This document shows, in pieces, positions 28,355 through 30,976 of a DNA stretch of 40,415 nt. Position 1 is the stretch's first letter. Each line of letters begins with the position of its first letter. This DNA is from an uncultured Halomicronema sp. (GTDB lineage Bacteria > Cyanobacteriota > Cyanobacteriia > Phormidesmidales > Phormidesmidaceae). Made by a program: the position numbers and the translations under genes. Below the pieces are notes generated by a model. That model saw nothing but the letters and a program-made list of their open reading frames with translations, had not been told where the DNA came from and did no database searches. The stretch lies in NCBI GenBank assembly GCA_937899725.1, contig CALCCA010000023.1, forward strand, positions 1-40,415, in the 5' to 3' direction.

Positions 28355-28963
28355 ATGAAACTGCATCAGGGGTTATTGATATTAGGCATTGTGGCGATTG
28401 GGGTCGGCGCGCTGGTGCTCTGGACCTACAGCGCCGCCTCGGCCCCGTTGCCCGAGGGCTTTCCACCACCGACAGCGGCAGGCGCGATCGAGATTAAGCA
28501 GTATCCGGCTTACCGCGCTGCCACCGTGCAGGTTACCGGCGATTTGGCGCAGGCGCCCTCGCGGGGCTTTTCACCGCTGTTTCGCCATATCAGCAGCAAC
28601 GATATCTCGATGACCGCGCCGGTCGAGACTCGGTATCCCATTGCCACACTAGAGGCTGAAGCGGCGACCGCAGGCGATGCGACCGTTTCGTTTTTATACC
28701 GCAGCTTAGAAATCGTGCCCGAAGCAGTGGCCCCAGATGTGCAAATCGAGGACATGCCATCCATGACGGTGGTGAGCGTCGGCGTTCGCGGCGGCTATGG
28801 CTATGACGTTTACACTGGCGGTATTGAGCAGCTGCAGACGTGGCTAGCCGCGCATCCTGACTACGTAGTGACCGGGCCGCCACGCCGGTTTTTCTATGAT
28901 GGCCCCTATGTGCCTGATCCGCTGAAGCGAAGTGACATTCAGATTCCCGTTCAGCGCCAGTGA
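28355..28963 (+). CDS. SOUL-family heme-binding protein
   Basis: This 202-residue protein has an N-terminal membrane anchor or signal (LLILGIVAIGVGALVLWTY, about 7-25) and then a SOUL domain. Family landmarks are IEIKQYPAYRAATVQV, GFSPLFRHISSNDISMTAPVE, the central MPSMTVVSVGVRGGYG, and the C-terminal RRFFYDGPYVPDP. SOUL proteins bind heme or tetrapyrrole, and bacterial ones are poorly defined. Placement at the membrane or in the periplasm is likely. The gene is monocistronic. Confidence 0.9.
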   Translation: MKLHQGLLILGIVAIGVGALVLWTYSAASAPLPEGFPPPTAAGAIEIKQYPAYRAATVQVTGDLAQAPSRGFSPLFRHISSNDISMTAPVETRYPIATLEAEAATAGDATVSFLYRSLEIVPEAVAPDVQIEDMPSMTVVSVGVRGGYGYDVYTGGIEQLQTWLAAHPDYVVTGPPRRFFYDGPYVPDPLKRSDIQIPVQRQ

Positions 28964-29314: not shown

Positions 29315-30976
29315 ATGTCTAAGCCCGCCATCTTAACCGTTGATGATGATGCTGAAGTGCTGCAGGCGATCGCCCGTGATCTGAGACAGCAATACGGCGA
29401 TCGCTATCGCATTGTCCGCGCCAATTCCGGCCAGGACGCCCTCGAAGCAGTGCAGCAGTTGAAGCTGCGCAACGACACGGTAGCCCTGTTTTTGGCCGAC
29501 CAACGGATGCCTCAAATGAGCGGCGTCGAGTTTTTAGAACAGGCCACAGCAGTGTTTCCGGAAGCCAAGCGGGCGCTGCTCACCGCCTACGCTGATACCG
29601 ATGCCGCCATTCGCGCCATTAACGCCGCCCATTTGGATTACTACCTGCTGAAGCCCTGGGATCCCCCCGTCGAAAAGCTCTATCCCGTGCTCGACGACCT
29701 GCTGAATGACTGGTTAGCCCATTTCCATCCCGAGTTTCAGGGCATTCGGGTGATTGGCGATCGCTGGTCGGCCAACTCCCATCGCATTAAAGACTTCCTG
29801 GCTCGCAACCAAATTCCCTACCGCTGGCTCGATGTTGAACGCGATGCCGATGCCCAAAAGCTGCTGACCTATGCCGAGGCGAAGACGCCCTGTCTGCCGC
29901 TGGTGCTATTTGCCGACGGCGAGGCGCAGCCCAACCCTGACAACTTGCAAATTGCCGAGAAAATTGGTCTCCAAACCCAAGCCGCCAATCCGTTTTACGA
30001 TTTAGTCATCGTCGGGGGTGGACCAGGGGGGTTGGCCGCCGCCGTCTATGGCGCATCCGAAGGGTTACGCACCGTTATGATTGAGCGCGAAGCCCCCGGT
30101 GGGCAGGCGGGCACCAGCTCCCGGATTGAGAACTATTTGGGCTTTCCGGTCGGGCTGAGCGGCAGCGATCTGGCGCGGCGGGCGGTGACCCAGGCCAAAC
30201 GCTTTGGCGTCGAAATCCTAACGCCGCAGGAAGCCACTGGCATTCGCCTCAAAGATGATTATCGAGTCGTGACCTTAGCCGACGGCAGTGAGCTCGCCAG
30301 TCATGCCGTCATTTTGGCCATGGGGGTCTCTTGGCGACGGCTCAACGTGCCCGGCACCGAGCGCTTGACCGGTGCCGGGGTGTATTACGGGGCAGCTCAA
30401 ACTGAGGCGATCGCCTGTCAAGGCGAAGAGGTGTTTGTCGTGGGCGGTGCCAACTCCGCCGGGCAGGCCGCCATGTATTTCTCGCGCTTTGCGAGCAAAG
30501 TCGTCATGCTGGTACGAGGCGAATCGCTCACCAAGAGCATGTCGCAATATCTGATTGAGCAAATTGACGCCACCGACAATATCGAAGTCTGGACTCATTC
30601 CAGCGTGATCGAGGCCAAAGGGGACAGCAATTTAGAAGCGCTGACCATTCAAAACTCGCAAACCGGCGAGGCCCAGATTCTGCCGGCCAAGTCGCTGTTT
30701 ATCTTTATCGGGGCCCGCCCCTACACTGATTGGCTGGGCGAAGCTATCACCCGAGACGAGCGCGGCTTCATTCTTACCGGGCCCGATCAGACCCTCAGCC
30801 ACCAGACCGCCGCACCGTGGCAGCTAGAGCGCGCGCCCTATCTGTTAGAAACAGCCGTACCAGGCGTCTTTGCCGTCGGCGATGTACGTCATGGCTCGGT
30901 CAAACGCGTGGCCTCTGGTGTGGGGGAAGGCAGCATTTGTGTGCAGTTTGTTCACCAATATTTGAGTAATCTCTGA
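29315..30976 (+). CDS. Response regulator fused to thioredoxin-reductase-like flavoprotein lacking CxxC
   Basis: This encodes 553 residues in three parts. Residues 1-125 are a receiver domain with D10-D12, phospho-acceptor D62 (LADQRM), T90 and K113 (LLKPWD). Residues 140-222 look like a thioredoxin/glutaredoxin fold without a redox cysteine pair. Residues 226-553 are a two-dinucleotide-fold flavoprotein with FAD motif GGGPGG (234-239), GGQAGTSSRIENYLGFP, and NADPH motif VVGGANSAGQAA (375-386). In true thioredoxin reductase CATC follows the GVxx strand; here it is GAAQTEA (359-365). The enzyme therefore cannot reduce thioredoxin by the classical route. Phosphorylation-controlled NAD(P)H oxidation with an unknown acceptor is the best reading. 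Similar fusions are known in cyanobacteria, with function unsettled. Confidence 0.9.
   Translation: MSKPAILTVDDDAEVLQAIARDLRQQYGDRYRIVRANSGQDALEAVQQLKLRNDTVALFLADQRMPQMSGVEFLEQATAVFPEAKRALLTAYADTDAAIRAINAAHLDYYLLKPWDPPVEKLYPVLDDLLNDWLAHFHPEFQGIRVIGDRWSANSHRIKDFLARNQIPYRWLDVERDADAQKLLTYAEAKTPCLPLVLFADGEAQPNPDNLQIAEKIGLQTQAANPFYDLVIVGGGPGGLAAAVYGASEGLRTVMIEREAPGGQAGTSSRIENYLGFPVGLSGSDLARRAVTQAKRFGVEILTPQEATGIRLKDDYRVVTLADGSELASHAVILAMGVSWRRLNVPGTERLTGAGVYYGAAQTEAIACQGEEVFVVGGANSAGQAAMYFSRFASKVVMLVRGESLTKSMSQYLIEQIDATDNIEVWTHSSVIEAKGDSNLEALTIQNSQTGEAQILPAKSLFIFIGARPYTDWLGEAITRDERGFILTGPDQTLSHQTAAPWQLERAPYLLETAVPGVFAVGDVRHGSVKRVASGVGEGSICVQFVHQYLSNL

Follow-up and report, generated by a model that had tools for sequence, protein, structure and literature searches.

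Thioredoxin-disulfide reductase chemistry needs a pair of cysteines. Response regulators whose output is a redox enzyme seem to be little studied, and to our knowledge none has been characterised in the literature that could be reached; a full-text search of papers available without subscription found no functional study of a receiver fused to a thioredoxin reductase (TrxR)-like protein. Response regulators of the type REC-thioredoxin reductase have been named a 'Mycobacterium-like combination', in a description whose available part does not mention missing cysteines (PMC5847659). TrxR-like ferredoxin/flavodoxin NADP+ reductases (FNRs) without a CxxC appear in the accessible passages of PMC8564101, where FNR3, a member of this group, is assigned the function of a bacillithiol disulfide reductase. 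CxxC-less TrxR-like enzymes are known to reduce non-thiol partners (PMC8564101, PMC10294844, available sections of both), and TrxR-like FNRs carry beyond the TrxR helix a C-terminal FAD-covering subdomain with an FAD-stacking residue (PMC10294844, same sections). The available portion of a paper on Deinococcus thiol reductases contains neither 'cyclic nucleotide' nor 'fused', and 'response regulator' in its references only (PMC8945050).

Here we describe a regulator gene in a stretch of 40,415 nucleotides (hereafter the window) from an uncultured Halomicronema sp. (contig CALCCA010000023.1 of assembly GCA_937899725.1). An ORF check and translation gave an open frame of 553 codons on the forward strand (29315-30976) with start and stop as given, in which a receiver and a TrxR-like module are fused, as in the REC-thioredoxin reductases. 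The following features were assigned:

29315..30976, + strand: gene for a REC - glutaredoxin-fold - TrxR-like flavoprotein, 553 aa (ORF, Pfam, relatives)
29330..29665, + strand: receiver domain, residues 6-117 (Pfam Response_reg, E 3.7e-14; five invariant residues, see below)
29723..29989, + strand: predicted glutaredoxin-fold domain without cysteine pair, residues 137-225 (profile against 2lqo, AF2, Foldseek)
29765..29779, + strand: W151-S155, at the place of the glutaredoxin WCxxC, both Cys replaced by Ser (alignment of 109 proteins)
29990..30970, + strand: TrxR-like FAD/NAD(P)H module, residues 226-552 (Pfam, profiles, structure match)
30014..30031, + strand: FAD pyrophosphate motif GGGPGG, residues 234-239 (sequence and conservation)
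30389..30409, + strand: GAAQTEA, residues 359-365, where TrxR has CATC (aligned to the CATC-type TrxR of this genome)
30416..30418, + strand: C368, single conserved Cys just past the lost pair (Cys in 104/109)
30443..30466, + strand: GGANSAGQ, residues 377-384, glycine motif for the dinucleotide in the NAD(P)H domain (motif table)
30515..30517, + strand: R401, sole kept Arg of HRRXXXR (109/109)
30785..30844, + strand: insertion of ~20 residues that TrxR lacks, at about 491-510 (W502 and R506 do not vary among 51 cyanobacterial sequences)
30869..30889, + strand: second FAD motif FAVGDVR, residues 519-525 (alignment and conservation)

A flavoprotein without its cysteine pairs behind an intact receiver

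The receiver residues D10, D11, D62, T90 and K113 are intact, as originally predicted, and show no variation among 88 distinct full-length sequences from cyanobacteria, one of which is the window's; they provide the acidic pair, the putative phospho-acceptor Asp, the Thr/Ser and the Lys expected of a response regulator. The 89-residue middle domain is weakly matched by Pfam as glutaredoxin in 51 of 51 sequences when E values up to 1 are admitted (the best being 5.4e-5), and the window's own copy stays below the cut-off of 22.9 bits (16.7 bits, E 0.0085). Its profile matches mycoredoxin-1 (2lqo) at E 3e-8, and an AF2 model of the domain alone (pLDDT 84.0) leads in Foldseek to redoxins and glutaredoxins (best E 1.4e-4). 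As far as profile and predicted model can tell, the domain is a glutaredoxin fold.

For the flavoprotein part, Pfam Pyr_redox_2 covers residues 228-539, the best solved relative by sequence is the TrxR 4gcm (E 5.2e-46), and the C-terminal part of the predicted model matches thioredoxin reductases with Z about 24 over about 290 residues; sequence and model thus agree on a TrxR fold with its FAD and NAD(P)H domains. Modelled at full length, the protein reached a modest confidence (pLDDT 73.6, pTM 0.51), and the best Foldseek matches of this model by E-value are to AhpF, with a large rmsd of 17-26 A. Parts of the FAD region and of the region around the lost cysteines have pLDDT values under 50, so that the model does not allow an acceptor pocket to be described. 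Within the cyanobacterial alignment of the fusion, conservation is highest in the flavoprotein part.

The prediction that GAAQTEA replaces the TrxR active-site CATC was confirmed by alignment with the CATC TrxR of the same genome (L130, G000:C95:38359-39225, where G000 is the window's own genome), which places CATC against residues 359-365 with one gap. T363 stands opposite the second Cys, and E364 opposite the Asp after it. That Asp is an acid catalyst in the E. coli enzyme. An active-site CxxC is found in 0 of 109 aligned family members. Of these, 88 are distinct full-length receiver versions from cyanobacteria, with the window's among them; the other 21 are 11 plasmid-record proteins whose alignment extends over the receiver region, six proteins with a cyclic-nucleotide-binding (CNB) domain and four without a sensor. 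The loss is common to all three versions and therefore a family trait, and a one-off loss in the window protein is rejected on the same count. Five of the 109 carry a CxxC elsewhere, from about residue 426-430 in the NAD(P)H domain and outside the active site.

The claim that the middle domain also lacks a cysteine pair held as well, with the fold now read as glutaredoxin: the WCGYC of mycoredoxin-1 aligns in the profile with W-S-P-x-S. Position 152 is Ser in 95 of 109 members, Asn in 10, something else in 4 and never Cys, and position 155 is Ser in 92 and Cys in 6, so that neither the catalytic CxxC nor the CxxS of glutaredoxins and mycoredoxins is present in the window's domain. With the CATC and WCxxC sites lost, both relays of an AhpF-like design are gone.

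FAD and NADPH motifs had been called intact. This is correct for FAD, for which GGGPGG and FAVGDVR are conserved, and too strong for NADPH. HRRXXXR, the motif for the NADPH 2'-phosphate as defined in the accessible part of PMC8564101, is reduced to its first Arg, R401 (109/109), the only one kept of three, and the glycine motif GxGxxA reads GGANSAGQ, with N380, S381, G383 and Q384 in all 109 members. The conservation of GGANSAGQ and R401 makes NAD(P)H binding by the module likely, while the sequence does not choose between NADPH and NADH. That the FAD motifs, the glycine motif and R401 are conserved despite the CxxC loss argues for a kept catalytic core. The genome's CATC TrxR itself lacks both HRRXXXR and the usual glycine motif; hence it may be of the ferredoxin-dependent type, like that of Gloeobacter, and not NADPH-dependent.

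Matches to the regulator occur in 20 of 39 genomes (the window's own, which is among the 20, and relatives); the receiver is covered wholly or partly in 19 of them, and G017 has a sensorless version only. Together with the 80 loci kept of 200 found, which encode proteins 69-96% identical to the window's, this is conservation far beyond chance. A chance ORF or pseudogene is rejected in view of the 553-aa open frame, these relatives and the invariant motifs. The nearest regulators are those of G002, a near-identical uncultured Halomicronema assembly (96%), followed by LEGE 07170 and Oscillatoria CS-180 (84-85%). The G002 copy (L023/L136, near 4880) has an internal TAG stop inside the receiver, which may stem from an error in sequencing or binning. 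In an even draw over Cyanobacteriota, with only four candidates scored per genome, 15 of 292 genomes match, 12 of them with a full-length protein and the window's own among them; one match is a fragment with a stop.

Full-length relatives outside Cyanobacteriota were found in Deinococcus, Caballeronia, Paraburkholderia, Streptomyces, Nonomuraea, Tsukamurella and Nocardia, all from records filed as plasmids, some of chromosome size. The actinobacterial, deinococcal and betaproteobacterial proteins are 53-61% identical, and full-length members occur in at least four bacterial phyla. The glutaredoxin-fold plus TrxR-like unit also occurs with a CNB domain instead of the receiver (six aligned plasmid proteins) and without any sensor (four cyanobacterial proteins of 424-435 residues); in a 38.7% identical relative of Streptomyces NBC_01001 (L122) Pfam found no receiver. 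A tree of the receiver, CNB and sensorless versions has a largely unresolved backbone and thus gives no order in which the regulatory domains appeared.

Around the window gene, a SOUL-family heme-binding protein is encoded on the same strand at 28355-28963, 351 bases upstream. A promoter and terminator scan around the regulator gene gave no more than shuffled sequences give.

A candidate partner kinase on another contig

The original prediction had noted that no cognate kinase gene is adjacent. This applies to the window, where no kinase gene adjoins the regulator, and does not apply to most relatives examined; moreover, the same genome carries a kinase gene on another contig. The proposed search for conserved kinase neighbours was productive: a histidine kinase with a CNB-type domain is encoded directly downstream in seven of seven receiver-type loci outside Cyanobacteriota (Deinococcus, Caballeronia, Paraburkholderia, Streptomyces, Tsukamurella, Nonomuraea and Nocardia; the Paraburkholderia, Nonomuraea and Nocardia records are unannotated, and they too encode a homologue in this position). 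The same position is taken in two of three cyanobacterial plasmid loci (Nostoc sp. C052 and Gloeothece). Nostoc edaphicum differs: its nearby kinase carries a receiver instead of the sensor domain, and two genes lie between it and the regulator. The next gene is labelled 'ATP-binding protein' in the Deinococcus, Caballeronia, Streptomyces, Tsukamurella, Nostoc sp. C052 and Gloeothece records; a domain scan of these six plasmid kinases gave cNMP_binding and HATPase_c, and an HE[LM]NNP box is present in 52 of 52 aligned kinases.

The kinase cluster is represented in 59 of 80 named cyanobacterial loci. Among the 66 loci with at least 1500 bp on both sides, a kinase gene lies within 400 bp of the regulator in 39, farther away within the fetched flank in 12 and nowhere in the flank in 15; of the 39 close kinase genes 35 are downstream on the same strand. 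The flanks of the receiver-less relative L122 gave no kinase match. Two or three such kinase genes lie close to one regulator gene in several cyanobacteria (L028, L096, L070, L097), and Caballeronia and Paraburkholderia have one on each side of the regulator.

The window's genome holds a single full-length match to this kinase, G000:C187:2261-3748. Its identity to the kinases encoded beside the regulators of LEGE 07170 and Oscillatoria CS-180 is 74% and 72%, respectively, and in a quick tree it grouped with these two and with Leptolyngbya FACHB-8 in a four-row set with 99% SH-aLRT. Regulator and kinase, called present at E-value limits of 1e-60 and 1e-70, occur together in 18 of the 39 genomes; the regulator only is found in 1 (G022, where it lies near a contig end), the kinase only in 2 and neither in 18 (Fisher p 5.8e-8, without kinship correction). 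Kinase and regulator distances correlate with r 0.63 (n 52), a value reached in 0 of 2000 permutations. Both the correlation and the co-occurrence partly reflect species kinship. The kinase encoded on C187, whose gene is unlinked here, is the likely candidate for the partner of the window regulator; the genomic evidence for the pairing is strong and consists of its relatedness to the adjacent kinases, the position of such kinase genes beside the regulator in most relatives examined, and the co-occurrence counts.

Other arrangements were considered. An orphan regulator without a kinase is unlikely for this genome, given the full-length C187 kinase and its relatedness to adjacent ones. The next strongest match, on C160, comprises the kinase core only and adjoins receiver genes of its own; in the stretch L118:2140-5909 this second related kinase gene stands beside a receiver-only gene and a receiver-GGDEF-like gene, with domain names read from sequence. 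A kinase gene split off by misassembly is also unlikely, as G002 has the same stretch of kinase, VOC-family gene and ltrA on a separate contig (G002:C1002, L135; 92-93% identical). Gene order around the G002 regulator matches that of the window up to 31045, and the G002 contig ends soon after the regulator, so that linkage beyond its end is not fully excluded. No relic of the regulator was found by tblastn beside the C187 kinase.

A phosphate-cassette Arg is a feature of cyclic-nucleotide binding by CRP. Such an Arg is not common at that place in the 52 aligned kinases, and from sequence cAMP sensing by the kinase is neither supported nor excluded.

On C187 the kinase gene, a VOC-family gene (so labelled by its sequence match) and ltrA lie together, away from the regulator (L117:109-3748). 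After the kinase, the next neighbour clusters of the cyanobacterial loci are a VOC-family gene (13 of 80) and a short-chain dehydrogenase (12 of 80), and no gene for a redox partner or acceptor is conserved near the regulator there. The VOC genes near regulators are 32-37% identical to the one on C187, and ltrA was matched in only two of the cyanobacterial loci searched. It also recurs in three plasmid loci: in Nostoc C052 it comes after the kinase gene, and the Deinococcus and Nostoc edaphicum loci have it downstream. As conserved partners in cyanobacterial chromosomes the VOC gene and ltrA are therefore weak candidates.

Further neighbours recur on plasmids. On three cyanobacterial plasmids (L104, L108, L109) glgX and an AGE-family epimerase gene precede the regulator as a sugar-related cassette. 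UBP-type zinc-finger genes recur in Actinomycetota and Rhizobium (L106:9110-9463, L107:9137-9487, L124:3294-3557, L128:3219-3527). Where the locus is of the receiver type (Streptomyces and Tsukamurella) they adjoin the kinase gene; in Streptomyces and Rhizobium they adjoin the CNB versions. Some loci of CNB versions have the UBP zinc-finger gene, trxA and clpB as neighbours, with trxA adjoining the CNB version in two Streptomyces plasmids.

Proposed electron transfer and alternative readings

We propose, giving it an even chance, that the window protein is a phosphorylation-gated NAD(P)H flavoenzyme which passes FAD electrons directly to a non-disulfide acceptor. It would then be the responding half of a two-component system that acts through an enzyme. 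D62 would be phosphorylated by a cytosolic histidine kinase that carries a CNB-type sensor, here probably the one encoded on C187, and the phosphorylated receiver, packed on the cysteine-free glutaredoxin-fold domain, would free or align the TrxR-like module. NAD(P)H would reduce the FAD, and the FAD would hand its electrons without a disulfide relay to an acceptor other than thioredoxin, for which a small molecule (quinone or flavin) or a protein carrier (ferredoxin or flavodoxin) may be considered. Such a direct transfer to non-thiol partners has precedents among the CxxC-less relatives of TrxR (PMC8564101, PMC10294844, available sections). The NADPH-fed enzyme under two-component control with a non-thioredoxin acceptor that was originally proposed is thus still the best reading, except that a preference for NADPH cannot be read from the sequence. 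Several results count against the gated flavoenzyme: 15 of 66 loci have no kinase in the flank, the one nearby in Nostoc edaphicum is of another type, only one of the three Arg for the NADPH phosphate is kept, and a conserved redox partner gene is missing nearby.

The loss of every CxxC relay, the lack of a conserved acceptor gene and the occurrence of the same flavin unit with a receiver, a CNB domain or no sensor would also fit a redox sensor rather than an electron supplier. The NAD(P)H pool or oxidants would then determine the state of the FAD, and this state would alter phosphorylation or interactions of the receiver and feed back on the kinase. We consider this unlikely, since it is the flavoprotein part that is most conserved, and an N-terminal receiver together with a kinase that has its own sensor-type domain is the usual layout with the receiver as input and the enzyme as output.

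Retained thiol chemistry, either via C368 or with the flavin itself attacking a disulfide or a low-molecular-weight thiol disulfide, appears more doubtful still. In its favour are the conservation of C368 just past the lost pair, the trxA genes beside the Streptomyces CNB versions and the bacillithiol disulfide reductase FNR3, which likewise lacks a CxxC (PMC8564101, available part); against it, C368 is missing in 5 of 109 members and lies beyond the CxxC site, and both glutaredoxin-domain Cys positions are Ser in most members. Least probable is a catalytically dead scaffold or regulator that binds nucleotide or flavin and interacts with partners depending on phosphorylation, as the removal of two redox centres and the weakened NADPH phosphate motif might suggest, because strong conservation across phyla extends to the flavin motifs, the glycine motif, R401 and the remodelled segment at the active site, features that a scaffold alone would not have to retain.

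Beyond the gated flavoenzyme itself we tentatively suggest a two-component pathway with electron flow as its direct output, in which an environmental signal, relayed by the CNB-type kinase, would open a cysteine-free flavoenzyme; electrons would then pass from NAD(P)H directly to a non-thiol carrier, with no transcription involved. If this is true, the flavin unit would be a switchable redox valve that reuses an AhpF-like scaffold stripped of every CxxC relay, and a general one, since it also occurs with a CNB domain in the receiver's place. The window's genome supplies its own candidate kinase for the regulator. Assaying one kinase-regulator pair would show whether two-component systems gate electron flow directly, and would fix the annotation of many genes.

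Comparison with known systems

Compared with low-Mr thioredoxin reductases, the window protein is alike in fold and FAD/NAD(P)H layout, and differs in the absence of the redox-active CxxC from the NADPH domain, where GAAQTEA stands instead, the loss of most of HRRXXXR, the insertion of ~20 residues and two extra N-terminal domains. It stays below the cut-off of NCBIfam TIGR01292 (224.2 bits vs 343.45). With AhpF it shares a thioredoxin-fold domain ahead of the TrxR module, whereas it has no CxxC in either module and a receiver at its N-terminus; the N-terminal cysteine pair that feeds AhpC in AhpF is absent, and TIGR03140 gives 168 bits vs 502.9. Mycoredoxin-1 and glutaredoxins share the fold and the position of the active-site Trp with the middle domain, in which both catalytic Cys are Ser.

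The TrxR-like ferredoxin/flavodoxin NADP+ reductases (YumC/FNR2, IruO, Bdr) have, according to the parts of the cited papers available, the TrxR fold without CxxC, as found here. They are a far weaker match than TrxR (5xhu, E 3.7e-16, vs 4gcm, E 5.2e-46). By its length and model, the window protein lacks their C-terminal FAD-covering subdomain, as this is described in the accessible sections; it ends with the TrxR-type C-terminal helix (H535-552 of 553), and the TrxR alignment reaches residue 552. Since it is closer to TrxR and has no such C-terminal part, we do not file it with the TrxR-like FNRs.

Relatives in the plasmid records are annotated 'FAD-dependent oxidoreductase', and some records name relatives 'thioredoxin-disulfide reductase' despite the missing cysteine pair. 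The 'cyclic nucleotide-binding domain-containing thioredoxin-disulfide reductase' has the same glutaredoxin-fold plus TrxR-like unit, also without the active-site CxxC, and differs in having a CNB domain in the receiver's place. The closest described system remains the REC-thioredoxin reductase response regulator, which, by the available part of its printed description, is the same fusion of receiver and TrxR-like module (PMC5847659); we find no difference in kind, apart from the unlinked kinase gene of the window. The architecture is thus already in print; the loss of the cysteines is a trait of the whole aligned family, and the chief new result is the candidate kinase.
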